Source of the DNA: a virus
Virus record (IMG/VR): IMGVR_UViG_3300023174_000044
Location: 124,001-188,000 of that record
Strand: one strand, 5' to 3'
Length of the DNA: 64,000 nucleotides
Positions within the stretch are counted from its first letter, which is position 1, and every line of letters begins with the position of its first letter. Positions 5,582-19,568 of this stretch are shown here, piece after piece. A program made the translations under genes and the position numbers. Below the pieces are notes generated by a model, which was not told the DNA's origin, made no database searches, and saw only the letters and a program-made list of their open reading frames with translations.

Positions 5582-6652
5582 TTATAATCCGCCAAATAAA
5601 AATACTCGGTCAAGATTTTTTATTTGATCTAACGCTTCTTGTGCTTGTTGATATTGACTGTGCTCGGGATCAAATACGTCAATCAACTTAAATTCATTGT
5701 TGGAGAATGTGCCCCAATTTCCAATTCTTCCATACTCAATTAAATCTACGCCCAGGTGCTGGCCCATGTTGTAAAATTCTAGCATCTCTTCAAAATTATC
5801 TTTTTGAACTATCATTCGAATTTTAAACAGCATGCCATTTTGTTTTTTCTTTTCAGAAATCCACAATAATGCATGTTGTAGGTCGTCCCAGCGTCCACCA
5901 CGACGCAATTTTTCATATGTAGCAGACCTTGCGGCATCGGTGGTAATGGTAATCGATTTTACTTTTTCTTGCATGCTGCCAAGTCGATGCCAACGGTCTG
6001 GTACCAGTAAACCATTTGATTGTATAGCCAATTGTACGTTTGGAAAATCCTCTGTTGATATTGTGTTAACAAACGACAACAACATTGGACTGGCAAATAA
6101 TTCTCCACTGGTACTCACATGTAGTACGATTGGTTGATTAGTAGGTGTACAAAACAAATTTGATTTTAGTGTTTGCCCTAGGTGTTCTAGATGTTCATTC
6201 TGTGCATCATTGTTTTTTATAATTTCCGTTCGACAACTTGGGCAACTGAGATTACAGGTTCGATCGCCAGATACCCAAATTTCTTTGGGCATAATGTAAC
6301 GAGATGCATCAAGAAGCAAGGGTTTAATATCATTGCCTACATTTTCTTTATCATTAAGATGATTGTGCCTTAAGATTCCGCAGGTGTTCTCGTTGCAATA
6401 ATCGTAGGTACCATCAATAATGCTCTGTCGCACATTGGTACTGTCAGCATTGGACAATATTTCGTCAAGTGAATTAATTAATAAATTTCCAACACTAGAT
6501 GGCATCCAGTCTTGACAACCACAGAGAGTTACTCTACCATCAAGTCCAATGCACATGCCCACAAAAGGACTAAGACAAACAAGATTTTGTAAATTTTTTG
6601 CTGGGAATTGTACTAGTGGCTTCTGTATCCAATTTAGTTTGTATTTTGACAT
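5582..6652 (-). CDS. Radical SAM protein with an N-terminal SPASM-like cysteine set
   Basis: The core motif CNLSCPSC gives C133, C137 and C140, the CxxxCxxC that binds the catalytic 4Fe-4S cluster and S-adenosylmethionine. Upstream, residues 26-91 carry C26, C34, C44, C46, C86 and C91 around a GLDGRVTLCGC segment and a GNLL..SLDEIL stretch, which is typical of the auxiliary-cluster SPASM/twitch domain. In most family members this lies after the core; here it comes first. The substrate is unknown; SPASM proteins often modify peptides. The gene stands alone between promoter and intergenic sequence. Confidence 0.82.
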   Translation of the reverse strand: MSKYKLNWIQKPLVQFPAKNLQNLVCLSPFVGMCIGLDGRVTLCGCQDWMPSSVGNLLINSLDEILSNADSTNVRQSIIDGTYDYCNENTCGILRHNHLNDKENVGNDIKPLLLDASRYIMPKEIWVSGDRTCNLSCPSCRTEIIKNNDAQNEHLEHLGQTLKSNLFCTPTNQPIVLHVSTSGELFASPMLLSFVNTISTEDFPNVQLAIQSNGLLVPDRWHRLGSMQEKVKSITITTDAARSATYEKLRRGGRWDDLQHALLWISEKKKQNGMLFKIRMIVQKDNFEEMLEFYNMGQHLGVDLIEYGRIGNWGTFSNNEFKLIDVFDPEHSQYQQAQEALDQIKNLDRVFLFGGL

Positions 6653-6754
6653 ATAGTAATTATGCTCACTTTGTAGTCTACGGTAGCGAATCGCTTTCTA
6701 CACCCAGCAGCCGGGTCACACTACGGTAACTAGTACCGGTCCTAAGGTGTGTTC
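6653..6754. other. Structured intergenic segment with 23S rRNA helix 69/71-like sequence
   Basis: A GC-richer patch between two minus-strand genes. On the plus strand, 6725-6748 reads GGTAACTAGTACCGGTCCTA followed by AGGT, close to the 23S rRNA helix 69-71 stretch that is also the I-CeuI target (GTAACTATAACGGTCCTAAG). A second match, GGTAGCGAA, lies at 6682-6690, so the order is permuted. CGGTA/TACCG can form a hairpin around ACTAG. No open frame of interest and no tRNA fold is evident. Confidence 0.4.
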
Positions 6755-7330
6755 TTAAAAAATTATTAATCTATCCATTGTAAATTCATTAACAGATACC
6801 GATGGGTCAATATCATTAACAGCACTACACCATGCTTGCCAAATTTCACTATCAGCGTTGTTAAAGTATGTTTTTAAATCAGGGCAAGATTTTTTATATG
6901 CACTAATACTTTCTTCTACAAAATCATAATTTTGTTGATACTGTAGTTTATTTTTATCTAAAATATCAAACAGAGAATTAGCAAACACCCTTGGAGAATC
7001 AAGAAGTTGATAATCTAAATCTACGTTAGATACATCTAGTTGTAATTTACTTTTTGCCGCTGATTTAAAATAATTTTGATTTCCTAGTTGGTTGAATCCA
7101 GTCTTGACTAAAGCATTAATATAAAAGTTAAAAGTACACCGCCCGCTAAATTTTGTATATGTTATATTTTTGTTAGGCGGGTTGTGCGATGCTTGTACGC
7201 TTGCTGATTCTATTTCACTGTGAAAATTTTTTAATCCTGATTTAATTATTAATTTGCCTGATTCTAATCTATAAATTAAATTTGATAACCATCTACCGCC
7301 TGCTCCGGGTGGATACTGTATGTGAATCAT
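6755..7330 (-). CDS. Sulfotransferase-like P-loop protein (tentative)
   Basis: 191 residues starting MIHIQYPPGAGGRWLSNLIY, a glycine-rich loop right after the first beta strand, as in small phage and bacterial sulfotransferase-like proteins, where it would hold the PAPS 5'-phosphosulfate. The rest shows no motif I can name, and the 3'-phosphate binding segment is not clear. AT-rich compared with neighbours. Three other sulfotransferase-like genes lie at 28940, 31767 and 33052. Confidence 0.45.
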   Translation of the reverse strand: MIHIQYPPGAGGRWLSNLIYRLESGKLIIKSGLKNFHSEIESASVQASHNPPNKNITYTKFSGRCTFNFYINALVKTGFNQLGNQNYFKSAAKSKLQLDVSNVDLDYQLLDSPRVFANSLFDILDKNKLQYQQNYDFVEESISAYKKSCPDLKTYFNNADSEIWQAWCSAVNDIDPSVSVNEFTMDRLIIF

Positions 7331-7341
7331 AGATTGATAAT

Positions 7342-7422
7342 TTATACAGGACTATAGGGATTGAGAGGGCGATCCCACTCGCCCTGTTGTTCAGGATACA
7401 CTGGGTACTCGTTGTTTTGCAT
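7342..7422 (-). CDS. Possible 26-residue peptide
   Basis: A short frame starts at an ATG at 7422, five bases after the stop of the gene upstream, and encodes a Pro/Tyr-rich peptide (MQNNEYPVYPEQQGEWDRPL and six more residues). There is no clear ribosome site. A perfect 7-bp hairpin (AGGGCGA/TCGCCCT, 7366-7385) lies inside it and could instead be an RNA structure. Weakly supported either way. Confidence 0.3.
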   Translation of the reverse strand: MQNNEYPVYPEQQGEWDRPLNPYSPV

Positions 7423-7426
7423 TGAT

Positions 7427-9085
7427 TTACTTGCTGGATTTATAACTAGCGTAGCCTCGACCGTAGCCACTTTGTTGGCTTTCGTCTAGCCCTGGTAATA
7501 GTCCGGCTTTTTTCATTGCGGCTTTGGTTGCTGGCCCAACATCCATGCCTGTGTCTACGATTTTTCCATCTTTTACTAAGAGAAAACGTGCTTGACTTCT
7601 AATAATAGCTGATCCGTTACTGCCACGATTTGGTGTAACACTTATATTACTTTCAGTGTCTAATACTGCTTTAACTGTGTGTCCAGCAACATCTATTGTG
7701 GTTAAAACAAAACCGTTGCCTAAATCTTGTTGTTGACTTGATTGTGCCATAGCACCGCCAGCGGCTCCAGCCAATGCGGCAGCGCCAAGTCCTCGCAAGA
7801 ATCCTCTACGATTCATATCGGCTTCCGATACACCTTGAGGTTTATCGTTGGGGTTGGTGGTCAACACAAACTCTTTGCCCTTGTTGAACAGTTTGGCCTG
7901 CATTGTTAGTGCGGCGTTGTTCGCGGTAGCCTTGTCACGGAATGAGTAAGGGTTGCCTGCTTTGTCTCTAATGAGTTTTCCATTGAGCCGGATATACCAG
8001 GTACGAGTGTCAGGTGCTGGGGCCTGGCCTTCAGGATCTCTAGCACCACGCTTGAAGCCTGTGCGATTTGTATAATAGTCGTTGCGGGCTTCGTCTAACT
8101 CTGCCTCCGCCACACCCTTCTTGGCAAAACGAGGATTGTGGAAAGCACCTTCGACGTACCATTCCATGTCATCATCATTTACTTTACAGTTCAATACTTG
8201 AACACTATAGCCTTGGTCATCTAACCAGGCCTGTGCTTGTTGTATCATTTCTTGTTTAGAAACGTCGCCACTGACGTCCAAATCGTTCCACCAACCATCA
8301 CCAACTAAGTCAGTCATTTGGTCATCCGTGTACCAACGTCCTGATTCGCCGCCGCCATTACCTGGAGCAAATTCTTTTAGGTTGCCTTGCTGGCCATACA
8401 TATCCATTAGTTGTCGAACATAGAAACTATAATGGCCACGACGGTCATTGTATTCTCTGTCTCCAAGCACAGTCTTTAATGCGGCCACAGCATCACTCAT
8501 TTCAGAACCATGCATTATTTTTAATGCGTCAGTAACCAGTGAATCAACTCGCTGTGAACTTTCTGCCATGTCTTGCTTTTTCTTTTTAGCAATAGCAATT
8601 GCGGCTTGCTGTGCGGCATTGGCAGCTTCGTCCATGGCCTTCTTGAATCCTTTGCCAGGCTCCCATCCTGCGATAGGTTTGCACTTGCAACTATCACCAG
8701 GGCACTTGCAATTCTGCATGCCACATTGCATACAGCGTTCTTTGGACTCTTGTATGCTTTCATTTGGCACACAGTTTCTTACTGACTTGCCTGTTGTAGC
8801 ACTTTTCTTTGTGCCTGCCGCATGATAGCCACTCCAGCAGTTGGTATAACCGTTGCTGTCTTTTTGGCCCTTCTTAATCTCATTGAGACTGCCATGTGTT
8901 TGACACATGCCACAGTCTTCACACACCATTTCCATCTCAACTGACTCGTTGTGTTTTTTCTTACCAGCACAATGAGCCTTTTGACTAAATCCTTTAGGGT
9001 GAGAGCAGTTGATACTGCTCTTGTATTTTTGACTCCACTGTTCCGCCACGCTCTGCGTGTTTTCAAATAAGGTATTGAGATTCAT
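7427..9085 (-). CDS. Modular capsid-targeted protein with GVAE/GVSE linkers and an internal Tat-type signal
   Basis: 552 residues. The N-terminus MNLNTLFENTQSVAEQW ends in a VAE site like the prohead-protease sites of its neighbours. Residues ~30-135 are Cys-rich (CEDCGMC, CMQCGMQNCKC), probably metal binding. Residues ~180-235 form a helical module (DSLVTDALKIMHG, DREYNDRRGHYSFYVRQLMD). Linker GVAE at 324-327 precedes a small module with TWYIRLNGKLIRDK; linker GVSE at 418-421 precedes MNRRGFLRGLGAAALAGAAG and AMAQ, a textbook twin-arginine signal, then ~100 residues. Hypothesis: packaged in the head, cut by the prohead protease, and the last fragment exported. No enzyme is recognised. Confidence 0.75.
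   Translation of the reverse strand: MNLNTLFENTQSVAEQWSQKYKSSINCSHPKGFSQKAHCAGKKKHNESVEMEMVCEDCGMCQTHGSLNEIKKGQKDSNGYTNCWSGYHAAGTKKSATTGKSVRNCVPNESIQESKERCMQCGMQNCKCPGDSCKCKPIAGWEPGKGFKKAMDEAANAAQQAAIAIAKKKKQDMAESSQRVDSLVTDALKIMHGSEMSDAVAALKTVLGDREYNDRRGHYSFYVRQLMDMYGQQGNLKEFAPGNGGGESGRWYTDDQMTDLVGDGWWNDLDVSGDVSKQEMIQQAQAWLDDQGYSVQVLNCKVNDDDMEWYVEGAFHNPRFAKKGVAEAELDEARNDYYTNRTGFKRGARDPEGQAPAPDTRTWYIRLNGKLIRDKAGNPYSFRDKATANNAALTMQAKLFNKGKEFVLTTNPNDKPQGVSEADMNRRGFLRGLGAAALAGAAGGAMAQSSQQQDLGNGFVLTTIDVAGHTVKAVLDTESNISVTPNRGSNGSAIIRSQARFLLVKDGKIVDTGMDVGPATKAAMKKAGLLPGLDESQQSGYGRGYASYKSSK
7744..7822 (-). other. Region coding an internal twin-arginine (Tat)-like signal
   Basis: Encodes residues 422-447 of the 552-residue protein: RRGFLR, a hydrophobic Ala/Gly/Leu run and an AMAQ signal-peptidase-like end. 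It begins right after the GVSE site, so a cut there would leave the signal two residues from a new N-terminus. Confidence 0.65.
8102..8116 (-). repeat. GVAE linker repeat, copy 1
   Basis: Minus strand GGTGTGGCGGAGGCA encodes GVAEA (residues 324-328). It shares GGTGTGGCGGA with the copies at 11865, 13752 and 14214, at the joints between different domains. Confidence 0.7.
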
Positions 9086-9678
9086 TATGCTTCATCCAAG
9101 TAATCGGGTGTGGCCTGTATAACTTCTACTGTGTTTTCTCTACGATGAGCACAGTACATTTCACAGGCCATCTCGGCATGTTTGAGTGATTCAAACTTTG
9201 CACTATGTGGTTTGTTTTTAATTGTAATTCTGAAACCATCATCATCGTTGCCGTGGATTTTAATTTCATGTCCGTCGTCGGTGTTGATAGTTCTAACTGA
9301 AGGCCCAATATGATCAACATCCTGTGGTATTTTATCTTTGAGATCAGAGTCTGACTTAATTTCGTTTGAAAGGTCAGCCAGGTAGTCGCCTAGTTTTTTC
9401 TTAACTGTGCTGATTACATCTTCGGATGTGACCACTTCAGAGATAGTTTCTTGATCTTCGTCTTGTTCAACACTCTCTGCTCCAACAAAGTATCCCTTGG
9501 TAGGATGCTCAGGATCAGTTCTATTGGTTAATACATTGATACTTTTTGGTTTAAACAGCGCAGGAAGTTCAGGAACTCTCCTTTGTTGTTTATTAAGTCC
9601 AGATTTAACATCCACAGGGGTAATTTCTCCCTCGGCAATTTTATCCAGCTTTGCTAAAATATCTTTTAAATCGCTCAT
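9085..9678 (-). CDS. Capsid-targeted protein of unknown function (CTS-like N-terminus)
   Basis: I place the start at the ATG at 9678, which overlaps the Dps stop as ATGA, rather than an upstream in-frame start at 9714 inside dps. The product (197 aa) begins MSDLKDILAKLDKIAEGE: a short amphipathic helix ending in IAE, like T4 capsid-targeting sequences cut after (I/L)xE. Residues ~90-180 are charged and include a beta-rich GHEIKIHGNDDDGFRITIKN module. The stop overlaps the next ATG (TAATG). No known enzyme motif. Confidence 0.68.
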   Translation of the reverse strand: MSDLKDILAKLDKIAEGEITPVDVKSGLNKQQRRVPELPALFKPKSINVLTNRTDPEHPTKGYFVGAESVEQDEDQETISEVVTSEDVISTVKKKLGDYLADLSNEIKSDSDLKDKIPQDVDHIGPSVRTINTDDGHEIKIHGNDDDGFRITIKNKPHSAKFESLKHAEMACEMYCAHRRENTVEVIQATPDYLDEA

Positions 9679-10115
9679 GCCCGCTCGCCTTTTAAGAAAC
9701 TTCTTAACATCCAACCATGCTTGGCCTGTGCGTCTAGGCGTTCAGCAATGAAGTTGGCAATGCCCTGGTTGTTTTCTTGTTCAGCACTGACAAATGTTTG
9801 ATTCAATAAATCAATTAGGGCTCCGTTGTCAGAAAGCAACTCTTCAATCATCAATCGGGCACGTGGGATCTTGGTTTGTCCTTGTATGATAGACAGTTCT
9901 TGAAAACGTTCAAAACTGCCTGGACTGTATTCTTGTAAGGTGCGAATGTATTCAGCAATTCGATCAACTGCGCCGTACACCTCTTCATAGAAGTTGGCAA
10001 AGAAATCGTGGTATTGAGCAAAGTCAGGACCTTCCACATTCCAGTGAAAATTCTGTGCTTTGATACTCAAAGCATATTGTGTGGCCAGCAAAGTCTTTAA
10101 ATCGTCCGATAACAT
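9675..10115 (-). CDS. Dps-like ferritin
   Basis: 146-residue Dps/ferritin-like protein. The intersubunit ferroxidase ligands are all present: H24 (NFHWNVEG), H36 (QYHDFF), D51 and E55 (AVDRIAEYI). Family knowledge: Dps dodecamers oxidise Fe(II) with hydrogen peroxide, store iron and protect DNA. It lacks the capsid-targeting peptide seen in its neighbours, and has no Lys-rich DNA-binding tail. It lies between two CTS-type genes with 4- and 1-base overlaps. Together with the superoxide dismutase (55106) it suggests oxidative-stress protection during infection or in the particle. Confidence 0.9.
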   Translation of the reverse strand: MLSDDLKTLLATQYALSIKAQNFHWNVEGPDFAQYHDFFANFYEEVYGAVDRIAEYIRTLQEYSPGSFERFQELSIIQGQTKIPRARLMIEELLSDNGALIDLLNQTFVSAEQENNQGIANFIAERLDAQAKHGWMLRSFLKGERA

Positions 10116-10282
10116 TATTTCTTCCTAGGTTTTACAGGCATCATTTTTTGTGCGCTGTTGGCATATTTAGCTGGTTTAGTACTCTTAGTCCTAGTTATCA
10201 CTTCGCCCATTGGTTGAGCCACGGTAGCAATACCGCCTGAGCATGTGCCGCCCATACTTTCAGTTATTTCACGTAGTCGCAT
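10115..10282 (-). CDS. Small CTS-type protein
   Basis: I choose the ATG at 10282 (preceded by a GGAG ribosome site ten bases upstream) over an in-frame start at 10336. The 55-residue product begins MRLREITESMGGTCSGGIAT; MRLREITE matches the MR..EI.E pattern of the neighbouring capsid-targeting peptides with a cut expected after E8. The remainder is small, Gly/Ser/Thr-rich, then basic (ends PVKPRKK). The 5' end overlaps the preceding gene by 14 bases. Confidence 0.62.
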   Translation of the reverse strand: MRLREITESMGGTCSGGIATVAQPMGEVITRTKSTKPAKYANSAQKMMPVKPRKK

Positions 10283-10568
10283 CGAATATAATCTCCAAGG
10301 TTTGTTGATCAACCCAGCGAGCCGATCCGTGTTCAATTCTGTGATTTTCTATCTGGAACGTGGCCAAGTTGGGCTTTAATGGCTCAAACTTAACTGTATA
10401 CATTCCTGCTGGTGCTTCTATTTGCAGTATTTCTTTTAGATACTCATTTACCCAATAGAATGTACGCTCAGCAAATAATTCATCGTTGACATAGATGCGA
10501 TAAGAAGGTGGTAATCCTTGCCAGTCACAATGCAAATCAAATAAAGCTTTTACGAATTGTTTTTTCAC
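10269..10568 (-). CDS. Hypothetical protein, beta-rich
   Basis: 99 residues, apparently starting at GTG (10568). Aromatic-rich and predicted beta (SYRIYVNDELFAERTFYW), reminiscent of carbohydrate-binding-like modules, but no family can be named. A TAAATAC late-promoter-like motif lies just upstream, with no good ribosome site. It overlaps the next gene by 14 bases. Confidence 0.6.
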   Translation of the reverse strand: MKKQFVKALFDLHCDWQGLPPSYRIYVNDELFAERTFYWVNEYLKEILQIEAPAGMYTVKFEPLKPNLATFQIENHRIEHGSARWVDQQTLEIIFDATT

Positions 10569-10595
10569 CCAGTATTTAGTTGGGCGTTAACTGAA

Positions 10596-10796
10596 CTAAA
10601 CTTTGAGTTCTCTTGGCTGTCCAACAATAACATGCTTGTTATTGTATTGTTGTCTGAGTATTCTACGAGCCATTTCTGGTGTACGAGCCATTACTGTAGT
10701 ATCAATGATGTTGATATAGCCCGTTTGTTGTAACTTAATCTTTACAACATAAGTTTTCATCTTGGTTTTAACAGGCTTAATTTCTTTGTAGCGCAT
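10596..10796 (-). CDS. Hypothetical protein with CTS-like start
   Basis: 66 residues beginning MRYKEIKPVKTK, which shares the MRxxEI opening of the CTS family but has Pro where the cleavage Glu would be. A second Met at residue 13 (MKTYVVKIKLQQTGYINII) could be the real start. The body is a small basic beta/alpha protein. One base separates it from the GP88-like gene upstream. Confidence 0.6.
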   Translation of the reverse strand: MRYKEIKPVKTKMKTYVVKIKLQQTGYINIIDTTVMARTPEMARRILRQQYNNKHVIVGQPRELKV

Positions 10797-10797
10797 A

Positions 10798-12168
10798 TTA
10801 GTGGAACATTAAAAACTGATTTTGTACATCGAGTCTTGTTGCACCCAAGTCGCCGTGGCCTGCTGGAAATACTACCACATTCCATTTAGGCTTGGGTCCT
10901 TCGGGGATACGATTCATTTGGTCGTATGTGATAATTGATCCTGGGTCAATATTGTATTTTGTAGATAACTTCTGTTTGAAGTTTTCCCATGCTTCTGGGC
11001 TTTTGACCTGTGTGCGGCCTTGTTCATCCTTGACATATTTGCCCTTGGCATCAGTCACAAACAAATCGCGGAACATGTCTTTGGGAATAGTCGGTGCGCC
11101 TTTTAGGTTCTTACCGGCATTTCTGTAGAGTTCAACTTTCTTGACTTCTCGACTCTTGGCACCACCATCACTGAAGTTGGGTAATGTATTAGACGGCGTG
11201 TTTGGATCAGTTACTGGATCTCCCATTTTGCTGTAGAAGTAAAAACGTACATCTGGGTTGTTGAGTTGCACTTTCTTACTAAGGTCCCAGTACTCTTTAG
11301 AGAAAAAGTCGCCAGCATCATGAATGCGCACCAGCAACTTGATGCCATTTTTGTCTGCCAGTGCTTTTGTTCGTTTGATTTCTGCGTCAAACATTGCCAT
11401 GTACTCATCAGGGTGATTAACCAAGAAGTTCAATGCTTGTGCGGCCGACATAGATGCGGCAGGGAACATAACGTAGCCGCCTTTTCTAGCATAACAGAAC
11501 AGTTGACATTCGCCTGCACCCGGGCATGTGGTAATTTCCACAAACTCTCCGGTGTCTTCATCCACAACAATACCACTTAGTGCTGGTAGTGTCAAGTCGT
11601 ATGTGATGGCACCTTCTTTTTTACTCTTGCTCATCTTGGCATTTGATCCAAGGATTGCCCTGGGCGGTGTAGTAATTTGACGCTTTAGATCTTCCAAGTC
11701 CCATTCTTCTGTACCATCGTCTTTGGTAATGGCTTTGACATTGCTACCGTGAATAATAGGCTTAAAGCGATCTTGTTTGGTTTTTGTACCTGTTTTAATT
11801 CGAGTTAGGTAATCCTGCATGTCTTGCTTAGACCATGACTTCTGTGGAGCATTTAACTTGATTGCTTCCGCCACACCGTTATCTGTGCCAATGTAGTGAT
11901 GATTGTGTACTTTGTAGCCTTGTTTACGATACCAATTGACAGCAGTATTAACAGCAGATTCACGATCTAATGCACGTACCTTGGCCTTGCGTTGTTTTAG
12001 TTCTTGACGTTGTGTCACAGCTGGACTGTGAGGATCACTGACAGTGACAGCAACTATGTGCTTGTCAAAGTTATGCTCAAGTTCTTCACTGACACCGGTG
12101 TTCTCAATATGCAAAGGTTTTACTTTGAATCCGCCCAGGGTAGTTTCTTGAAGTTCGTTAAATCTCAT
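10798..12168 (-). CDS. GP88-family protein with capsid-targeting peptide and GVSE/GVAE linkers
   Basis: 456 residues in three parts. Residues 1-8 (MRFNELQE) are a CTS-type peptide. GVSE (25-28) and GVAE (98-101) bracket a ~70-residue module (HIVAVTVSDPHSP, WYRKQGYKVHNHHYIG). The rest resembles the phage 'gene product 88' family: CPGAGECQLFCYARKGGY with clustered Cys, LVRIHDAGDFFSKEYW and FYFYSKMG. The biochemical role of GP88 is not established. By context it should be packaged in the head and released from its leader and first module by the prohead protease. Confidence 0.75.
   Translation of the reverse strand: MRFNELQETTLGGFKVKPLHIENTGVSEELEHNFDKHIVAVTVSDPHSPAVTQRQELKQRKAKVRALDRESAVNTAVNWYRKQGYKVHNHHYIGTDNGVAEAIKLNAPQKSWSKQDMQDYLTRIKTGTKTKQDRFKPIIHGSNVKAITKDDGTEEWDLEDLKRQITTPPRAILGSNAKMSKSKKEGAITYDLTLPALSGIVVDEDTGEFVEITTCPGAGECQLFCYARKGGYVMFPAASMSAAQALNFLVNHPDEYMAMFDAEIKRTKALADKNGIKLLVRIHDAGDFFSKEYWDLSKKVQLNNPDVRFYFYSKMGDPVTDPNTPSNTLPNFSDGGAKSREVKKVELYRNAGKNLKGAPTIPKDMFRDLFVTDAKGKYVKDEQGRTQVKSPEAWENFKQKLSTKYNIDPGSIITYDQMNRIPEGPKPKWNVVVFPAGHGDLGATRLDVQNQFLMFH
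11865..11877 (-). repeat. GVAE linker repeat, copy 2
   Basis: Minus strand GGTGTGGCGGAAG encodes GVAE at residues 98-101 of the GP88-type protein, between the small module and the GP88 domain. Identical over 13 bases to the copies at 13752 and 14214. Confidence 0.75.
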
Positions 12169-12221
12169 TTCTTTTTCCTATTTGCAAAGGCAATCTTTAT
12201 TAATTTACTTATGTTTTATTG

Positions 12222-12878
12222 TCAGATAAAGTTTGGATGATTGATAACTTGCTCTGCATATAGTTTATTGGTTTTTTCACCGGGGTGCATATTATCATCT
12301 GCAAAATCTAACATTTGTGACATCCAGGAAGCATTGTCATCTGATAAAAATTGTGTTTTATCAAGCTGATTAAACAGCATTGGAAAACCTCGAGCTTGTT
12401 CCAAAAATCCCATGCCGTTTATTAATATCATTTTAGAATCATGTTGCTTGCAATAATTTTGCAACAAAATTAATTTCAACAGATCTTGTTCAATTTCTTT
12501 TCTGGTATTAAAAAAATTAATTCCAACTTCTATAATAGAGTTAGTTTCTAAATTGGTTTTTGTATTAGAGACCCGGCCACCGTTAAAAATACAAAAGTCA
12601 GTGGAGTTGTTCCTCCAAAACCAACGTCGTCGAGTTGATGTTGTTTGTATTATAACAACGTCATAATGTGTAGATAAAATTTCCTGTATTGCACGATATA
12701 AGATTTCTTGGTTGCTAAGGCCGCCATAACTGATATTGGTAATAGAAACATTTGTTTTAGTGGATACTATGTTGTACCAACATCTAGGATCATCATGATT
12801 TCCAACAATCTCTCCAAATCCGCAATAATCGCTAAACGAGCATCCTACTAACAAAATAGATTTTAAAGATGCTGACAT
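12222..12878 (-). CDS. SGNH/GDSL-hydrolase-like protein
   Basis: Start placed at 12878, where the ATG overlaps the upstream stop (TAATG); product 218 aa. The SGNH blocks can be seen: LVGCSFSDYCG (block I, Ser), ISYGGLSNQEI (Gly/Asn block) and DNMHPGEKTNKLYAE (block V, D..H). Family members are esterases or lipases acting on acyl or acetyl groups of lipids and sugars; the substrate is unknown. One of four such genes here (30065, 35470, 39836). AT-rich relative to the CTS genes. Confidence 0.6.
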   Translation of the reverse strand: MSASLKSILLVGCSFSDYCGFGEIVGNHDDPRCWYNIVSTKTNVSITNISYGGLSNQEILYRAIQEILSTHYDVVIIQTTSTRRRWFWRNNSTDFCIFNGGRVSNTKTNLETNSIIEVGINFFNTRKEIEQDLLKLILLQNYCKQHDSKMILINGMGFLEQARGFPMLFNQLDKTQFLSDDNASWMSQMLDFADDNMHPGEKTNKLYAEQVINHPNFI

Positions 12879-13297
12879 TATTTTTTGCGACCAGCTTTCA
12901 TGTTGGCACACCAGTGCGCCATGCGTTGTCTTTCGCCGGAACTGTTGGCAGCAATGCTACGCAACTTCGAAACTGATTGTTTGCAGTTGACACCCTTGCG
13001 TTTGGCCAGACCTTTGCGTCCGGGTTTTTTACCATCGGCAAAGTTTTCTTTCATAACCCAGGTGTCTGGAACTTCATGGTACCGGTCAACCCACATGTCA
13101 TGTAACTTCTGACCACTGATGCTGTGAGTTTTTGCAATACGTGTCATAATTTTGTCAATACTATCGTACACTTGATCATCGCTGGCAGACTGCAATTTTT
13201 GTTTGCGAGCTATCAATGCTGCCTTGAGTTCCGCCACTGCTTGATGGTCTTTGCTGTGGTCCATGTTTTCTGATACAATAAATTCTTGTGCTCTCAT
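12878..13297 (-). CDS. Capsid-targeted protein with basic Cys-containing C-terminal module
   Basis: 139 residues. MRAQEFIVSE is almost the T4 IP leader (MKTYQEFIAE) in pattern. An inner AVAE at 20-23 could be a second cut. The C-terminal ~55 residues (KPGRKGLAKRKGVNCKQSVS ... WCANMK) form a strongly basic module that I recall from hypothetical proteins of T4-like phages and that would suit DNA binding in the head. The ATG overlaps the upstream gene's stop by four bases. Function unknown. Confidence 0.72.
   Translation of the reverse strand: MRAQEFIVSENMDHSKDHQAVAELKAALIARKQKLQSASDDQVYDSIDKIMTRIAKTHSISGQKLHDMWVDRYHEVPDTWVMKENFADGKKPGRKGLAKRKGVNCKQSVSKLRSIAANSSGERQRMAHWCANMKAGRKK
13277..13297 (-). 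repeat. CTS-coding DNA repeat, copy 1 (MRAQEFI)
   Basis: ATGAGAGCACAAGAATTTAT plus T: the start of the 139-residue gene. Nearly the same 21 bases begin the genes at 14652 and 15321. Confidence 0.75.
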
Positions 13298-14652
13298 GCT
13301 AGTCCAATCTTTCCTGGCGCCATTGGTCCAGTTGCAATTCTTTCACCACCATCAAAGTAACGTATTTCTACGGGCATGTCTGGCCAGTTTAATCTGTAGG
13401 CAGCCATGATGCGATGATTGCCTTCGTTGACCCAGGCTTCGCCATTGTAGGCCACCATGATATAGGGCAGGTATTCTTCGTTGGGGTTACTGCCCATGGG
13501 CGGCAATTTGCCAGTCTTGTCCATGTAGTCCATCAACCACTTTAGGTCATTTTTGCGCACATTCATTTGTTCGTTGCGCATACCAGGCAACGAAGCTAGT
13601 CGCATCACACGCACTCTAGGTGGAGTTCCAACCACACCAGCAGTGGTGCTACCCATGTAAGGAACACCGTAGCTGTTACGGCCTTTGCTCTTGGCATAGT
13701 CAATTTTATCTTGCAACCACTCTTCATTGGGTACGTCTACGCTTAGTTTGCCTTCCGCCACACCTTGCTTCTTCATATACTTCTTACGCAATTTTAAGTC
13801 TGCTGGCGTTGCTTTTCTGATTAAATTCAAATATTTGTTTACTGGAATTTCTTTTATCTCAATGGGTTTGATGCCTTCTACTCCAGGAATAGAATGAAAC
13901 TCTCTGCTATTGCCACCCTGAACAAACTGCGGTTTTCCATCTGGGCCATTGAATGGTAATTTATGTAGATACACATATTCACCTTTTCTAATCTTGCCAC
14001 TGAACAAAACCATTTGTGGATCATTGGGGAACATACCTGTATCTGACCCAGCAGTAGTTAGACCCATTGCTATGGCAACTTTAGGATCAGAGGTAGCATA
14101 GATAGCATTTTGATTACTACCAGCCGCACCACCTGTATCTACCGATTGTCTTGGCTCTAGCATAGGAATCTTTTGTCTTGACCCATGCCAAAGATAGGTA
14201 TTAATAACTTTGCCTTCCGCCACACCTTGCTGTATGGTGCTTAGTCTAGCAAGTTCTTGTTCACCTTCGGGAGTCAGTAACCAATAGCCGTCGGCATCTA
14301 CAATCCAACCAGCGTCATATAAACTGTCATACACTCTACTTTGGGCACGGCTTAGACTCTGACTATCTTCTTGAAATCCCAAACCATGATCATTTGCAAC
14401 TTCAATGGCTTTAAGTAACAAGGCTTTGCCATAACCTTTGCCGCGTACATCGTCAGTTACTTCTGCCTGATTGTGTACGTCTTCAGTCTCAGGATCCCTA
14501 TAGAATGAAAAATGTCCAACATTTTTTCCATCAGCGATTGCAGTAACAGTAAAACTACTTTGATAGTTGTCTGTGGATGCTGTGCGGAATTGTACTGCCG
14601 ATGCGTCTGCTTCGCCAAGGAAGCCTTCAGTGATAAACTCTTGTGCTCTCAT
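13294..14652 (-). CDS. Three-domain capsid-targeted chain: GNAT acetyltransferase, ADP-ribosyltransferase-like, ParB/Srx-like
   Basis: 452 residues. Leader MRAQEFITEGFLGEAD has two possible cleavage sites (ITE, LGE). Residues ~20-135 are GNAT-like (VRGKGYGKALLLKAIEVAN, acetyl-CoA loop RGKGYG). GVAE 143-146 opens domain 2, residues ~150-290, with YLWHGSRQKIPMLEP and NAIYATSDPKVAIAMG, the H-G-S and (I/V)YAT patterns of ADP-ribosyltransferase folds; this call is tentative. GVAE 297-300 opens domain 3, with WVNEGNHRIMAAYRLNWPDM like the GxHR motif of ParB/sulfiredoxin proteins. T4 Alt, also head-packaged, is an ADP-ribosyltransferase, which fits. Start overlaps none; the stop overlaps the next ATG. 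Confidence 0.75.
   Translation of the reverse strand: MRAQEFITEGFLGEADASAVQFRTASTDNYQSSFTVTAIADGKNVGHFSFYRDPETEDVHNQAEVTDDVRGKGYGKALLLKAIEVANDHGLGFQEDSQSLSRAQSRVYDSLYDAGWIVDADGYWLLTPEGEQELARLSTIQQGVAEGKVINTYLWHGSRQKIPMLEPRQSVDTGGAAGSNQNAIYATSDPKVAIAMGLTTAGSDTGMFPNDPQMVLFSGKIRKGEYVYLHKLPFNGPDGKPQFVQGGNSREFHSIPGVEGIKPIEIKEIPVNKYLNLIRKATPADLKLRKKYMKKQGVAEGKLSVDVPNEEWLQDKIDYAKSKGRNSYGVPYMGSTTAGVVGTPPRVRVMRLASLPGMRNEQMNVRKNDLKWLMDYMDKTGKLPPMGSNPNEEYLPYIMVAYNGEAWVNEGNHRIMAAYRLNWPDMPVEIRYFDGGERIATGPMAPGKIGLA
13752..13764 (-). repeat. GVAE linker repeat, copy 3
   Basis: GGTGTGGCGGAAG (minus), coding GVAE 297-300 and preceded by CAA (Q), between the ART-like and ParB-like domains. Confidence 0.78.
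14214..14226 (-). repeat. GVAE linker repeat, copy 4
   Basis: GGTGTGGCGGAAG (minus), coding GVAE 143-146 between the GNAT and ART-like domains. The flanks match copy 3 for several more bases (CAAGGTGTGGCGGAAGG). Confidence 0.78.
14632..14652 (-). repeat. CTS-coding DNA repeat, copy 2
   Basis: The first 21 bases of the three-domain gene; differs from copy 1 at two positions (third-base changes). Confidence 0.75.
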
Positions 14653-15321
14653 TTAATACACCAAACTATCTATACGTTTATATTTTATATTAAACGCATT
14701 CATTAATAATTCTACTTCACGCAGGCATTCGTCTCTGCCGCCACCAACCAAGTATGCACCATTAAAACGCTTTAGTTGACCAACACTGGCCCAGCCCACA
14801 GTCATTGGATCATCTTCCATTTCTTCTATGGCACCTTGAATCAAACTTTGTGTAGTAGTACGACGATTAAAGGCAGGGAACTCTAGGTCTCTAGTGTCAG
14901 AAACTTGTTGTGCGTACATTTCACGTATGGTTGCAATGATGGTACTTGGTTCTATTCCGTGATCCATCCAGCTACGGAGGTAGCCATAACCTTTGTCTAC
15001 TATTTGAAAGCGACGCCAATCTACGGGACTTTTGGGCTCGTTGTAATAGTCATCACCATTCTCGTCTTCGCCTTCTTCGCCTTCGGTTCCTAGTGTTTCG
15101 TCCCAGAATTGTTGTATCTGTTGAACGGAATCCCCACTCAGGCCTTGATCTTCAGCATTGACAAAGAACAGCACAGGACCAGTTTGCTTTTGTACAAAAT
15201 TCATTATTTGAATAAACTTTGGATTGGCAGGTGGCCAGGGTCCGCCATTGTATTCAGGTTGAACATCAACACAAATAACTGGCTGACTTAGGCCTTCAAC
15301 AATAAAATCCTGTGCTCTCAT
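14653..15321 (-). CDS. Isochorismatase-like cysteine hydrolase with capsid-targeting peptide
   Basis: 222 residues. Leader MRAQDFIVE, cut expected before GLS. The body has the isochorismatase/nicotinamidase pattern: PVICVDVQPEY (Asp of the catalytic triad), FQIVDKGYGYLRSW (Lys) and YLVGGGRDECLREVELLM (Cys nucleophile). An acidic insert (EGEEGEDENGDD) lies mid-chain. Family members hydrolyse isochorismate, nicotinamide or similar amides; the substrate is unknown. Nicotinamidase activity would be interesting given the NAD synthetase gene here, but that is speculation. Adjacent to the next CTS gene without a gap. Confidence 0.7.
   Translation of the reverse strand: MRAQDFIVEGLSQPVICVDVQPEYNGGPWPPANPKFIQIMNFVQKQTGPVLFFVNAEDQGLSGDSVQQIQQFWDETLGTEGEEGEDENGDDYYNEPKSPVDWRRFQIVDKGYGYLRSWMDHGIEPSTIIATIREMYAQQVSDTRDLEFPAFNRRTTTQSLIQGAIEEMEDDPMTVGWASVGQLKRFNGAYLVGGGRDECLREVELLMNAFNIKYKRIDSLVY
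15301..15321 (-). repeat. CTS-coding DNA repeat, copy 3
   Basis: The first 21 bases of the isochorismatase-like gene; encodes MRAQDFI and matches copy 1 at 18 of 21 positions. Confidence 0.72.
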
Positions 15322-17408
15322 TACATTTTACCTGATGTCTTTAATGTAGGTGGTGTGCCAGCGGCAGTGGTATGCCAGCCCATTTTTTTGGCTTGGCGTT
15401 GTACTTCTCCGGGCTTGATGTCCACAGTTAAGGCCATACTGTAACGTGGATCACGAGCTTCCTGGTCATTAATGGGGATGTAGCCTGATGCTTCTGCTAT
15501 TGGTTTTATTCTACTTAATTCGTACATGACTTTGTTGCCGGTGTCAGCACGGAAAGCACGGAAGCCCAAAGCCTTTGCATAACGCTGAACCAAACTGTCA
15601 TACAGTCTTGCCCTGGTCATTGCTTTTCTTTGATCCTCATCTGGGTTAACTTCTTTTGAAGCCGAAAAGTATATTTTGTTGGGCTTGTATCTTCCCTTGG
15701 CGCCAGGCACCCTGTCAGAAACAAATGTTTGAACAGCACTTAACACAGTGGCAAACACACGCTGTTGATCACCCTCGCCTGTTTTTTCTTGACTGTTGTT
15801 TCTATAAAACTCAACACTCCATGCTTCCTCTTTTGTATCTTGACTAAATCCCTTGGTAAACATGACACTTAGAAAGGTATTGTCATCTAATCGTGCTATT
15901 GCGTCTACATCACCATGGTCACCCTTTTCCCATCGAAGTATTTTATAGGGTTGGTCTAATGATTCATTAACATCTTCGGGTACTACTTGCCCTTGGCGAC
16001 GACGCAGATCATCTTTCATGCGCTGTAATAATTCTTCGCGAGCACCGGCAACGCCCATGTGCTTGATGGTCTGCGACGCACGCCCTATGGTTTGTATATC
16101 CTTGACTGTTTGTCCAACACCATTGGTGGTGGCGCAACCAGGTGTGCCGGCTATGCATGCTGCCGCAGCCACGGCTGCTAGTCGGTCTTTGACAGATTCC
16201 TCTAGTGGCATATCTTTAAAGAATTCTGGATACTGATCAACCCAGTGACGCATAATGCGGCCTGCCATGGCATTGGCTTCGTCTTCGTAAGGGGATCCTG
16301 TTTCACCTGCGTCCACAGGCATGTCAGCTAGTTCGTCTTGGCGAGCGTGTGTGAGCTCATGTGCTAGAGTACGCAAAATATCTAGCACATGACGGCCACT
16401 TACTGCCAGTGTAACTGAACGTGTTTCATGATCAAATTGACCGAATGTGCCGTTTCTACGTGTCCATTCCGGGTCACGTTTTAATATGATTTTTGGGGCT
16501 TGTTCAATTCCGAGATACTCAACACAACTATCAATGAATGGTTGTAGTACTTGCTTAATGTCTTGATTAATGTCTGGAGATTCTGTGTTTTCTTGTACAC
16601 TTTCGCCGCCACCATCGCCACCCTCGCTGTTGCCAAACGAGAATCCAGGCATCCAGTACCCACCATATCCGTAGCGTACTTTCTTTTTCTTGCGTTCTTG
16701 TAAACTTAGTTCATGATCTTTTGCGGCAAGCCTAGCTTCACGCAGTCGGTCAATCAAGCCGCTGGCCCTCAACAGTTTAAATGCTAGATTTTCTGGACCA
16801 AATTCTCCAGTATTGGCCAGGCCGGTTGTGCGCATTTCACGTATCTTTTTAGCCAGCAATTCCATGCGCTGTCTATCACCATCGGCAATGGCTGACTCAA
16901 TTCTGCGTCCTAGATCTTCGTACTTGCTACGTGTGCTCATGTCATCAACCACAGCTTGTTGACGTTTTGGAACTTGTAGCCAGTCATTGTTCAACACTGA
17001 ATACTCTCCTTGGCTTACTGGAGGTTGGTTGGCATTCTGTACATATAACTCAACATCGTAGCCGCCAATTTTAAAATTGTGCTGATCGTTATACTGATAT
17101 TTTTTAGCATCAAACAGTTCACGATAAACTTCGCTGGCATCAGCCTTGGGTAAATCTACTACCAAGTGTAGATCAATGTCTGAGTGTGGTGTATATGTGT
17201 AGGCGGCGTTTGAACCAGATATTGTGACGTCTTTTAGTTCAATGTCTGTTAGGCCAAGGAATTCACGGAAGTCATCCGCAATTGCCAATAGATGTTCACG
17301 AACATCAGGGAGAAGATTTTCGTCCTCTCCCCAAATGCGTGGGTTTAACTTGTCGTTAAACTTGATTGCGTTGCTTAAACGATAGGAATCTAGTTCATGA
17401 ATGTTCAT
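15321..17408 (-). CDS. Modular protein: nucleotidyltransferase, HExxH metalloprotease and C-terminal modules
   Basis: 695 residues. Residues ~20-180: nucleotidyltransferase-fold (GSNAAYTYTPHSDIDLHLVV, G65-S66 and D77/D79). Residues ~280-400: zinc-peptidase-like, HELTH at 350-354 with a probable third ligand E377 in DEANAMAGR. Residues 403-426: SVKDRLAAVAAAACIAGTPG then C, a hydrophobic lipobox-like stretch after LEE. Residues ~455-635: alpha/beta module. PIAE at 636-639 precedes a 56-residue tail (EARDPRYSMALTVDIKPGE). The N-terminus (MNIHELDSYR) lacks a clear CTS cleavage Glu, so packaging is inferred from the inner xxE joints and the cluster. Confidence 0.72.
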   Translation of the reverse strand: MNIHELDSYRLSNAIKFNDKLNPRIWGEDENLLPDVREHLLAIADDFREFLGLTDIELKDVTISGSNAAYTYTPHSDIDLHLVVDLPKADASEVYRELFDAKKYQYNDQHNFKIGGYDVELYVQNANQPPVSQGEYSVLNNDWLQVPKRQQAVVDDMSTRSKYEDLGRRIESAIADGDRQRMELLAKKIREMRTTGLANTGEFGPENLAFKLLRASGLIDRLREARLAAKDHELSLQERKKKKVRYGYGGYWMPGFSFGNSEGGDGGGESVQENTESPDINQDIKQVLQPFIDSCVEYLGIEQAPKIILKRDPEWTRRNGTFGQFDHETRSVTLAVSGRHVLDILRTLAHELTHARQDELADMPVDAGETGSPYEDEANAMAGRIMRHWVDQYPEFFKDMPLEESVKDRLAAVAAAACIAGTPGCATTNGVGQTVKDIQTIGRASQTIKHMGVAGAREELLQRMKDDLRRRQGQVVPEDVNESLDQPYKILRWEKGDHGDVDAIARLDDNTFLSVMFTKGFSQDTKEEAWSVEFYRNNSQEKTGEGDQQRVFATVLSAVQTFVSDRVPGAKGRYKPNKIYFSASKEVNPDEDQRKAMTRARLYDSLVQRYAKALGFRAFRADTGNKVMYELSRIKPIAEASGYIPINDQEARDPRYSMALTVDIKPGEVQRQAKKMGWHTTAAGTPPTLKTSGKM

Positions 17409-17429
17409 AAACTATATTTACCGCTTTGA

Positions 17430-18374
17430 TTACTTAGATGCTTTTGTTTTCTTTTTAGCTAGAGCAGGCGTTTCTATTGCCTTGACTGATTTAGCCACTG
17501 CTTTAACTGGCTTGGCTTCTGTCTTGCCTTGTTTGGCTGTTTCTGTAACAGGTGATTCATTACTGGCAATAACTCGAGAAGTTGCAGACACCTCTTGTTG
17601 AGCTAACTGTGCATCTGCTAGTTTCTTAGCTTCAACATTTGCCTTGGCAATAACACTAAGGTCTTCGTACAATTTGTCCTGTGTGTTAAAATCAAACACA
17701 TAGGTGCCGGTGTGCTTGAGCAATACCCGCTTGTCAATCCAGACTTTACCACCAATATCGCGCCAGTTTTCGCAGAATGTCCAGTCTTCTGAATAGTAGC
17801 GACCTTCGCGTACTGCTGTGTCGTAATATGTCTTCATGTATGGATCTAATTCTACTGGTAATCCAATGTCGTTTTTAAAGGGTTTGACTGCTTGATGTAC
17901 ATTGAGTTTATCAAATACATTGCGTTTTACCAACATAAAACCTGTGCCTGTTTTGCTAACTTCTTGAAGGTTGCCGTCTTCGCTGACTTCTGCATTTTCA
18001 AAACCATTAACTACCCACTTGATTGGCAAAGTTTTCATTGGATATAATCCGCCAACAACATCTTTTTGTGAATCAAGAAGTACTAGTAAATGCCAAGGTT
18101 CCCAACCAATGTCTGCATCAATGAACATCAGGTGTGTTGAGTCTGGGTTGTTTAAGAATTTAGCAACCAGTGTATTTCTAGCACGGCTAATTAATGATTC
18201 ATTGGTCATGGTTTCCATGGTCCACTCAATGCCAAGTTGTCGGCAAGTGTTGGCCCATTTGATATAACTCATGAATGTGCTTTCAGTTAACATGCCACCG
18301 TAGCAGGGCATACAGATATGCACTCTAGTGGTGCGCAGGTAGTCAACGTTGACTTGGATTTGTTGTTCAGCCAT
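17430..18374 (-). CDS. Glycosyltransferase, GT-A fold (family 2-like)
   Basis: 314 residues. HICMPCYGG opens the nucleotide-sugar fold, FIDADIGWEP contains the metal-binding DxD (D86, D88), and YYSEDWTFCENWRDIGG is the acceptor-side acidic region. The C-terminal ~70 residues are a low-complexity Lys/Ala/Glu tail (AKKKTKASK at the end), probably disordered. Target could be DNA, lipopolysaccharide or a virion protein. A late-promoter-like TTAAATAG lies at 18400-18410. Confidence 0.8.
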   Translation of the reverse strand: MAEQQIQVNVDYLRTTRVHICMPCYGGMLTESTFMSYIKWANTCRQLGIEWTMETMTNESLISRARNTLVAKFLNNPDSTHLMFIDADIGWEPWHLLVLLDSQKDVVGGLYPMKTLPIKWVVNGFENAEVSEDGNLQEVSKTGTGFMLVKRNVFDKLNVHQAVKPFKNDIGLPVELDPYMKTYYDTAVREGRYYSEDWTFCENWRDIGGKVWIDKRVLLKHTGTYVFDFNTQDKLYEDLSVIAKANVEAKKLADAQLAQQEVSATSRVIASNESPVTETAKQGKTEAKPVKAVAKSVKAIETPALAKKKTKASK

Positions 18375-18399
18375 ATGTTCCTCGTAAAAATATGTACTT

Positions 18400-18410: not shown

Positions 18411-18445
18411 CGTACAAAACCCTGGCTATTTTTTTACTGGCGAAG

Positions 18446-18592
18446 TTATGATGCTATTTTTAATCCAACGCCTAAAACCATTACCTTACTGCAATTTCTT
18501 AGTGGAGTCATCAATACATTAGGAGATCCATGCTGTACTGTCTTGACAGGTAACTTTGGCGGATGAACGCGACGTTTACTTGTTTGTTTCAT
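18446..18592 (-). CDS. Possible 48-residue basic protein
   Basis: Frame from the ATG at 18592, overlapping the end of the nucleotidyltransferase gene by 17 bases: MKQTSKRRVHPPKLPVKTVQ and 28 more residues, ending VLGVGLKIAS. Basic start, hydrophobic end. No clear ribosome site. It fills the only 200-base space in this stretch; coding is plausible but unproven. Confidence 0.38.
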   Translation of the reverse strand: MKQTSKRRVHPPKLPVKTVQHGSPNVLMTPLRNCSKVMVLGVGLKIAS

Positions 18593-19568
18593 CAATATAG
18601 TCATTGTTTTCGCCAATGTCAATTTCTCGACCACGTGCAATTGGACGTCTGCCTTGCTTGTCTGAGAAATCCTCCAACCTTGCCAACGCTTGAACTTTAC
18701 TTTGCATGGCACCGGCTTTGTACATTAAATGTTCAACTCCTCGATAGTTACCAACTTTGAGCATTTCTGCTAACTCAACTAATTGTTTTACTAAACTGTT
18801 TTTAAGACTGCCTTCGTTCCAGGTTCCAAGTCCACCAGTGGGACGAATTTGAACTCCGTCATCAGGATCATTGACCAGGGTAGCTTCGTCAACTTCTTTA
18901 TCAGGACCGTTTGGCATTGGCATTCCTGCATTCAATCCTCCGGCTCCTACACCAAAGGCTGGGCCTTGTAGTGCTTCTTTTACATCATTGCCCATGCCTG
19001 CATCAATTAGTTTAGTTGTTACATTGGTTAACTTTTCGTTACCTTGGGTCTGTGGATACAGTGAATTAACCAATGAGGCTTTTTGTTCTGACGACATTGC
19101 AGGCCATTTAGCACGAATTTCTGTGGCACTGGTCATGCCTGAGCCAAACTGTACCACAGGCAAATATGCTATGTAAGCATGCTGAGTCATTGGCTGTAGA
19201 CCTGTGCGCTTGTATGGTTGTAAGTAGCCAGCACTACCATCCTTTTTTACATCGCCTGGCACGGGCTGTTCGTTACGATCCTTTTCACTGCGTACAAAAA
19301 TTAATTGTGTGCTACCAGGATCATAATGCTGTGTAATTTCATTGGCACGGAAAGGACTTTTAACCTGAATAAATCTGTGTGCAGGAATGCCGGCTAATTT
19401 TGCTAGTTTTTGTTTGACTGCAAAAGGAAAAGGTCTTGTTGAAGTATCTGCTGTGGCGGCAATATAAACGTCGGCACTAGGGAAAGCCGCTTGGGCCGAA
19501 TCGTATAGAGCTTTATGGCCTGCGTGAAAGGGGTGGAAACCACCGGGCATAATGACTAGTTTTTTCAT
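18576..19568 (-). CDS. HxGH nucleotidyltransferase (NMN adenylyltransferase/cytidylyltransferase-like) with C-terminal extension
   Basis: 330 residues. MPGGFHPFHAGHKALYD carries the T/HxGH nucleotide-binding motif (H12-H18), and FGSGMTSATEIR resembles the ISSTxIR motif II. Family members join NTP to nicotinamide mononucleotide, phosphopantetheine or similar. The last ~150 residues are extra, with Gly/Pro-rich and helical parts (VKQLVELAEMLKVGNYRGVE). The NAD synthetase gene at 58056 makes an NAD role possible. Substrate not determined. Confidence 0.72.
   Translation of the reverse strand: MKKLVIMPGGFHPFHAGHKALYDSAQAAFPSADVYIAATADTSTRPFPFAVKQKLAKLAGIPAHRFIQVKSPFRANEITQHYDPGSTQLIFVRSEKDRNEQPVPGDVKKDGSAGYLQPYKRTGLQPMTQHAYIAYLPVVQFGSGMTSATEIRAKWPAMSSEQKASLVNSLYPQTQGNEKLTNVTTKLIDAGMGNDVKEALQGPAFGVGAGGLNAGMPMPNGPDKEVDEATLVNDPDDGVQIRPTGGLGTWNEGSLKNSLVKQLVELAEMLKVGNYRGVEHLMYKAGAMQSKVQALARLEDFSDKQGRRPIARGREIDIGENNDYIDETNK

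Follow-up and report, generated by a model that had tools for sequence, protein, structure and literature searches.

The recently found targets of the internal proteins of phage T4 are host restriction systems. The T4 proteins IPI, IPII, IPIII and Alt carry diverse small cargo behind a capsid-targeting sequence (CTS), a short leader ending in (L/I)xE that is cut by gp21 (PMC9026906, PMC3012670, PMC12373910). Here we describe a gene cluster with similar traits at positions 7427-17408 of a 64,000-nucleotide stretch of viral DNA (the window), which comprises bases 124001-188000 of a virus record of 262,308 bases from IMG/VR. The cluster probably encodes head-packaged cargo proteins and polyproteins that would be processed by a prohead protease and diversified by recombination at the DNA of the cleavage sites. 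As in T4, an S77 protease occurs with gp20/22/23-type neighbours and the cargo varies between related phages. In T4, however, each gene encodes a single cargo that is processed at its N-terminus (in Alt also at the C-terminus), and cleavage and injection are proven there and predicted here. In contrast, the cluster has several modules per chain and a linker conserved as DNA, and its module borders coincide with apparent recombination borders.

Other described systems share part of this arrangement. In phiKZ and SPN3US, a gp21-like protease cleaves many inner-head ejection proteins after (S/A)xE; some of them have identical N-termini on diverged bodies and some undergo several cuts within propeptides (PMC5694885, PMC9026906). 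Those accounts, in their available portions, concern propeptides rather than reusable inter-module linkers and describe no exchange of modules at the sites of cutting. Proteins of the polyvalent class (Iyer et al. 2017) are likewise multi-domain and rapidly reshuffled, and many are predicted to be packaged and injected; they differ, according to the available part of that source, in that processing, if any, is by fused peptidase domains, with neither a repeated prohead-protease linker nor a DNA joint (PMC5512222). In our search, which covered part of the literature, no account turned up of exchangeable cargo modules connected by prohead-protease linkers. The concept derives from T4 internal proteins and polyvalent proteins, while polyproteins linked by QGVAE through a joint conserved as DNA appear to be new.

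Leaders and linkers of the cluster

The gene run around the cluster is encoded on the minus strand of the window. A preliminary description had named seven leader peptides here; all are present on the minus strand within 7427-17408, but starts and peptides had been listed in mismatched order. Their assignment is as follows.

15295..15321, minus strand: leader at start 15321, MRAQDFIVE, then G
14626..14652, minus strand: leader at start 14652, MRAQEFITE, then G
13268..13297, minus strand: leader at start 13297, MRAQEFIVSE, then N
12145..12168, minus strand: leader at start 12168, MRFNELQE, then T
Start 10282, minus strand: leader MRLREITE, then S
Start 9678, minus strand: leader MSDLKDILAKLDKIAE, then G; ends in LDKIAE
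Start 9085, minus strand: leader MNLNTLFENTQSVAE, then Q; ends in SVAE

N-terminal leaders of 8-20 residues ending in hydrophobic-x-Glu were found on unrelated proteins, strongly so for the three MRAQ leaders, whose consecutive genes (15321, 14652 and 13297) differ in body as had been proposed. Leaders also occur above chance: at related loci, 66 of 153 linker-bearing proteins carry the pattern M[RKN]xx[EDQ][FLI]..E, compared with 281 of 2358 other open reading frames (ORFs; 43% versus 12%, Fisher p 2.5e-20). With a stricter pattern in the own genome, the counts are 3/12 cluster ORFs versus 11/334 elsewhere (p 0.009), so only the three MRAQ leaders stand out alone. The four weaker leaders (12168, 10282, 9678 and 9085) appear to gain weight solely through comparison with relatives. 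Across 26 homologues of the 15321-start protein, Glu at position 9 is near-invariant and the leader body is variable.

These data bear on the reading that the cluster holds ordinary cytoplasmic accessory genes, with leaders that are chance similarities or relics of gene duplication. GNAT, Dps, GP88 and nucleotidyltransferase domains are common among phage accessory proteins, and MRAQ leaders in three neighbouring genes could come from duplication. However, the leaders precede bodies that have no relation to one another, divergent homologues keep the leader Glu, leaders are enriched as given above, and cyanophage relatives lie in the head/packaging block (see below); we consider this reading very improbable.

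The preliminary description overlooked an internal linker, QGVAE↓G (the arrow marks the putative cut), which lies at domain joints and turns several cluster genes into polyproteins. It is encoded by 18 near-invariant bases, CAAGGTGTGGCGGAAGGC. The joints in the cluster are the following.

14214..14226, minus strand: linker DNA GGTGTGGCGGAAG, encoding GVAE↓G, with the Q codon upstream
13752..13764, minus strand: linker DNA GGTGTGGCGGAAG, encoding GVAE↓G
11865..11877, minus strand: linker DNA GGTGTGGCGGAAG, encoding GVAE↓A
8104..8116, minus strand: linker DNA GGTGTGGCGGAGG, encoding GVAE↓A
7823-7834, minus strand: QGVSE joint (GVSE↓A)
9041..9052, minus strand: linker-like DNA AGCGTGGCGGAA, encoding SVAE↓Q, which closes the leader of the 9085-start protein

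The exact linker DNA GGTGTGGCGGARG has four copies in the 262-kb record, all in the cluster and on the coding strand, and a reversed-pattern control has none. The linker stands in the GVAE frame in 83/83 copies from loci selected by protein and in 245/247 from loci selected by pattern. Codon usage at 56 distinct QGVAEG sites reads CAA GGT GTG GCG GAA GGC; GCG was used for Ala at 50 of them against a background of 9% in the same loci, GTG at 52 (22%) and GGT at 53 (41%). A 17-base form was found in at least 119 stretches of viral contigs, and a 20-base form had three matches in 257 Gb of bacterial genomes, about the chance level and none on a phage-like contig. The linker is phage-restricted and always coding. 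It is sometimes doubled (QGVAE↓GSLNE↓), and a second LxE follows two residues past it in 39 of 427 linkers (9% versus 0.5% expected).

Near-fixed silent positions would also suit a linker that is mainly a DNA signal, such as a target of a nuclease or recombination enzyme, a Chi-like site or a mini-mobile element, with incidental translation. A precedent is reported from the T-even tail-fibre genes, where conserved coding motifs swap functional segments between phages; these encode adhesins, whereas the cluster here encodes putative head cargo. Tetart, Desplats and Krisch reportedly identified in 1998 short conserved coding motifs as crossover points in these genes, and to go by the title of that work adhesins are swapped between such motifs. 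We know of no protease-site role for the tail-fibre motif. Yet the linker keeps a single reading frame at nearly all sites, these sites fall at protein module borders, and leaders of quite different DNA occupy the same position, which makes a mere DNA signal quite unlikely.

That leaders take the place of linkers was seen when module starts were searched against all ORFs and the N-terminal alignments were collected. In total, 109 leader-type proteins, representing 41 module clusters, align to module starts near their N-terminus. [ILVF]xE ends directly before the aligned start in 39 of the 109 and at offset +4 in 38, mostly from one family with the linker partner GVAE↓GSLNE↓; other offsets hold 0-15 each. 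For example, the GKLSVDV module follows MRAQEFITE↓, MRAQEFIIE↓ or MRVSEFITE↓ in relatives and KKQGVAE↓GKLSVDV in the window, the NMDHSKD module follows MRAQEFIVSE↓ in the window and EEQGVAE↓NMDHSKD elsewhere, and MRAKDILNE↓DWQKVNK has the counterpart QTQGVAE↓DWQKVNK. The alignments indicate that leaders and linkers are interchangeable before the same modules, with the Glu in register.

Exchange of modules between phages

The genes and modules concerned are listed below.

15321..17408, minus strand: 695-aa polyprotein with a nucleotidyltransferase-like N-part (residues 14-236)
14653..15321, minus strand: leader protein MRAQDFIVE↓GLSQPVICVDVQPEY..., with an alpha/beta fold in the predicted model
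13294..14652, minus strand: three-module polyprotein, leader + GNAT (1-146), 'GKVINTYLWHGSR...' (147-300) and 'GKLSVDVPNEEW...' (301-452)
13753..14214, minus strand: mobile module 'cluster 0', closed by a QGVAE linker of its own
13297..13752, minus strand: mobile module 'cluster 18' (GKLSVDVPNEEW...)
12878..13297, minus strand: leader protein MRAQEFIVSE↓NMDHSKD..., with a basic C-terminal domain
10798..12168, minus strand: GP88-type polyprotein with MRFNELQE leader, GVSE↓ELEHNF, then GVAE↓AIKLNAP and a GP88 domain (Pfam 1e-25)
10115..10282, minus strand: 55-aa leader protein MRLREITE↓SMGGTCSGGIATVAQP...
9675..10115, minus strand: Dps/ferritin-like protein without leader (Pfam Ferritin 3.8e-23, phrog_3636), part of the gene run
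9085..9678, minus strand: leader protein MSDLKDILAKLDKIAE↓G
7427..9085, minus strand: 552-aa Cys-rich polyprotein MNLNTLFENTQSVAE↓QWSQKYKSSINCSHPKGFSQKAHC..., with further joints GVAE↓A and GVSE↓A
18576..19568, minus strand: cytidylyltransferase-like protein, whose N-terminal domain heads linker polyproteins in related phages

Modules were cut at linkers and clustered by mutual coverage, and counts refer to the matches listed and are lower bounds. The sample leans towards relatives of two window proteins and towards a single exact pattern, ORFs were called mechanically, and a good number of clusters have few members. Below, G000:C1 is the record itself, G001, G004 and so on are related records, and L numbers are loci from related viral contigs.

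Among the matches listed, there are at least 232 distinct linker proteins with 472 strict sites and up to seven strict linkers per chain. Their modules fall into at least 603 clusters, 503 of them singletons, and the commonest module has 19 copies in 18 contexts. Unrelated domains thus share chains and are extensively reshuffled, as in polyvalent proteins, and contexts are nearly unique. When a cluster protein was searched against viral contigs, many matches were bounded at residues 137-151 to ~301 or ~279-299 to 452, and such linker-bounded matches reach 99% identity. At the DNA level, modules of related phages are up to 99% identical between unrelated neighbours, and 84 pairs from 24 module clusters, among the matches listed, have at least 75% identity with unrelated flanks on both sides. 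The averaged identity profile rises at the linker from a background of ~0.33 to 0.8-0.9, in 29 clusters on the left and 31 on the right.

Single cases in the window agree with this picture. The cluster 0 module has 98% DNA identity to L020 and 95% to L023, with unrelated DNA on both sides, and the cluster 18 module stands alone behind MRAQEFITE, MRAQEFIIE and MRVSEFITE leaders in L069, L032 and L071. The modules of the 13294..14652 polyprotein, whose linkers lie at residues 143-146 and 297-300, recur in other phages with borders at linkers. Those of the 12878..13297 protein, which has a second candidate site at PDTWVMKE↓NFADGKKPGRKG, are found behind QGVAE↓NMDHSKD in L035 and behind QSVAE↓NFADG in others. 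In the GP88 gene of a close relative (L024/L238), one extra 43-residue module that terminates in GVAE sits precisely at the position of the 11865-11877 linker. In the 695-aa polyprotein gene, DNA identity to L069 rises from 68% to 93% at ~15965; this protein has a later module 'SLDQPYKILRWEKG...' (residues ~480-634) after EDVNE↓, matched by phrog_16075/6387 over 480-634, and a C-terminal piece that begins after PIAE↓ASGYIP, and stand-alone relatives of one of its modules read MRATEFITE↓AFDKPYELLRWEKG.

Together, these comparisons indicate that the stretch from one linker to the next behaves as an exchangeable cassette. The breaks in identity fall on a motif whose silent positions are conserved. 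Exchange at random, with later selection for joints that preserve frame and cleavage, could produce such borders; since silent sites are conserved, the data favour homologous exchange inside the 18 bases.

The domain labels of the preliminary description fared unevenly. GP88 was recovered, GNAT was recovered in the 13294..14652 polyprotein (Pfam Acetyltransf_1 3e-6), and the Cys-rich label holds by eye. The isochorismatase-like label was not confirmed by Pfam, PDB profiles or Foldseek: the 15321-start protein has a good model, with a predicted local distance difference test (pLDDT) score of 87 (leader ~53, body mostly 75-95), yet no significant fold or profile match. The 695-aa polyprotein matches phrog_36119 at 2.8e-41 and, weakly, NTP_transf_2 (0.006). 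Most modules tested had no Pfam family match, and of the polyvalent-class domains (MPTase, DarA, ParB-like DdrB, ART and PBECR) just a weak ParB-like match (E 0.056) was found. For the commonest module (YLWHGSR...NAIYATSD), ADP-ribosyltransferase identity was an idea by eye that gained no support from model, fold or profile (AlphaFold pLDDT 76, Foldseek best E 0.45, PDB profile best E 0.17, Pfam DUF3990 0.21 in one member).

Elsewhere in the window, the product of 55106-55654 (minus strand) is an Fe/Mn superoxide dismutase (Pfam Sod_Fe_C 3.7e-21). Its start, MELRDHINLVE↓A, resembles a leader, and it is possibly another head cargo enzyme. A second cluster at G000:C1:249993-255924 (L011 1993-7924) has the leader-like starts MRLDEIEQ, MKLQELDA, MINRLLEGG and MQIHELTKLTEAG and includes a DUF6267 protein and a virion-structural PHROG match.

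Prohead protease, capsid sites and virion location

The gp21-like protease that the preliminary description proposed to look for was found in relatives, where Peptidase_S77 scored above the curated cut-off in 11/11 large related records, including G001. The record itself is incomplete: on ORF inspection it has no portal, scaffold, protease or capsid genes, and the head gene block is absent. Pfam S77 and Gp23 profiles had no match in it, which is uninformative by itself since control genomes were equally silent. G001 (345 kb) carries head genes, with PHROG matches for portal, protease and major capsid protein (MCP). Over window positions 4001-13898 and 13947-22000 its identity to the window is 100%, which takes in all of the cluster but 48 bases at contig ends of G001. 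In relatives the S77 gene adjoins portal, core, scaffold and MCP genes (gp20/gp22/gp23-type). Through relatives and G001, an S77 protease and T4-like portal, scaffold and major capsid genes were thus found in one phage.

Predicted capsid and scaffold sites of the relatives match the leader sites, as had been anticipated. In the MCPs of nine close relatives, LxE is invariant directly before the expected mature N-arm, with the sites YLKE↓NASAGSTSAGNIAT (YLKE↓NASAGSTSAGNIATLN), HLAE↓SASSGATAAGNVATLN and HLME↓TATTGATAVGNVATLN; scaffolds have VVTE↓SR or VISE↓SV, and the protease starts with IIVE↓G. Sequence resembling the MCP N-arm also stands behind the leaders of small proteins, namely MKIRDILE↓SATAGATSAGNIAA (MKIRDILE↓SATAGATSAGNIAAV) and MRAKEFMIKE↓TASAGATSAGNIAT (MRAKEFMIKE↓TASAGATSAGNIATVV), and in one polyprotein it recurs after a linker, DDIAE↓TATPGATSAGNVAT (DDIAE↓TATPGATSAGNVATL). 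By way of this arm, the Glu residues of capsid site, leader and linker fall into one alignment column.

The arm also bears on whether the modules could be polyvalent-type injected proteins kept as one chain, with QGVAE serving only as flexible linker and recombination joint. Polyvalent proteins have 2-15 domains per chain and some are transferred uncut, according to the available part of the source (PMC5512222), and a joint alone would need the conserved silent positions of the linker. However, short leaders also stand before these modules, their Glu in register, the second LxE at a fixed offset exceeds its background, and one joint precedes the arm-like sequence exactly where the MCP has LxE. 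We therefore hold an uncut chain to be unlikely. The T4-like reading of the preliminary description, namely head-packaged proteins cut by the prohead protease, is supported by S77 in relatives, capsid LxE sites and leader/linker interchange, all at the level of sequence.

Small MCP-arm leader proteins were observed at L225 9775-10035, L195 295-507, L259 3576-3803 and L260 4510-4770, with window 10115-10282 as a candidate; the 10282 gene (MRLREITE↓SMGGTCSGGIATVAQP) may be a diverged member, although the resemblance is weak. phrog_17311 (54 aa) matches both a small leader protein and the MCP N-arm. A possible role of these proteins is that of a capsid-lining or decoy peptide. The major capsid gene of G001 (L139 8249-9466) appears split into two ORFs, 8561-9466 and 8249-8530, where near relatives show a single ORF of 405 aa; the gene may be interrupted or frameshifted, or the assembly may be in error.

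The cluster DNA had no Megablast matches among cultured phages. At the protein level, Prochlorococcus phage P-TIM68 encodes module homologues directly behind gp21-gp22-gp23, Synechococcus phages S-SM2 and S-SM1 have them between gp16 and gp17, and homologues of the 7427..9085 polyprotein adjoin head genes in cyanophages. The S-SCSM1 homologue is annotated 'virion protein'; the study of that phage identified 45 virion proteins by mass spectrometry. These T4-GC119-type proteins (S-SM1, S-SM2, S-SCSM1 and P-TIM68) likewise have several homologous modules per chain and a head/packaging location, but the chains inspected differ in having no QGVAE linkers. NMNAT/cytidylyltransferase-type proteins have been detected in cyanophage virions (PMC9602691, PMC3037559), and domains of this type head linker polyproteins in related phages.

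ATAAATA, the core of T4-type late promoters, lies at most 80 bases upstream of 24 ORFs in the whole record (1.7 expected), including tail/baseplate genes. One copy precedes the 144376 gene, which lies close to where the gene run begins, and CTAAATA precedes 134269 and 142576 (record coordinates). These matches mildly support late expression.

Other parts of the record hold, by eye, a biosynthetic-looking run (L003 ~13017-19480 and L004, G000:C1:42003-67815) with carbamoyltransferase-, AMP-ligase-, tryptophan-halogenase-, radical-SAM- and sugar-aminotransferase-like genes; related amidinotransferase-like proteins with starts like 'YSVYQHWDPLKVCVVGRSYPPEFY' (G000:C1:57215-58276, 218840-219898, 219974-221113 and 224169-225086; L003, L009); and two secreted substrate-binding proteins of the tripartite tricarboxylate transporter type (G000:C1:4875-5828 and 157678-158661).

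Proposed processing and exchange of the cargo

We propose that each protein or module is preceded by an [ILV]-x-Glu site, either a leader of the MRAQEFIxE↓ type or a QGVAE↓G linker. During head assembly, the S77 (gp21-type) prohead protease would remove the leader and split the polyprotein into modules, and the same protease would cut capsid and scaffold proteins at like sites. The released modules would remain with the DNA and enter the host at infection. The shared 18-base coding sequence at module ends would act as an in-frame crossover point, at which recombination of co-infecting phages could swap, insert or delete whole modules with frame and cleavage pattern intact.

Several points weigh against this proposal. 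We infer cleavage, packaging, injection, the driving of recombination by linker homology and the role of the cargo in the host, and the phages are uncultured. The record itself carries no head genes, so the protease had to be drawn from G001 and relatives. [ILV]xE is a weak motif, occurring at about 1.8% of positions, so single leaders prove little. A clear leader is missing from the Dps protein and from the proteins at 10269-10568 and 10596-10796, so that the gene run fits only partly. P3 is Val in the linker and Leu in the MCP site; Val at P3 also occurs at scaffold C-termini and some protease starts, where cutting is predicted. The 'virion protein' label of the S-SCSM1 homologue likely, by our reasoning, stems from the mass-spectrometry data, and the S-SM1 T4-GC119 homologue is labelled 'hypothetical' despite mass spectrometry of that virion.

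Large freshwater T4-type phages appear to carry a mix-and-match cargo set with sites for the phage's own head protease, and module swapping probably puts fresh combinations into the head for injection. Whether protease-site DNA doubling as a recombination joint amounts to an open-ended, integron-like cassette system for virion-delivered effectors, with lake phages sharing a pool of hundreds of modules that are strung in frame into polyproteins and freed by the head protease for injection, we regard as evenly balanced. If the proposal is true, the protein processing site and the DNA exchange site would be the same 18 bases, and phage heads could be loaded with proteins by means of a natural tag. 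Every stretch bounded by two QGVAE sites would be a candidate injected effector or anti-defence module. Large environmental phages would then have turned the T4-style system of one cargo per gene into modular polyproteins that are recognisable by sequence.

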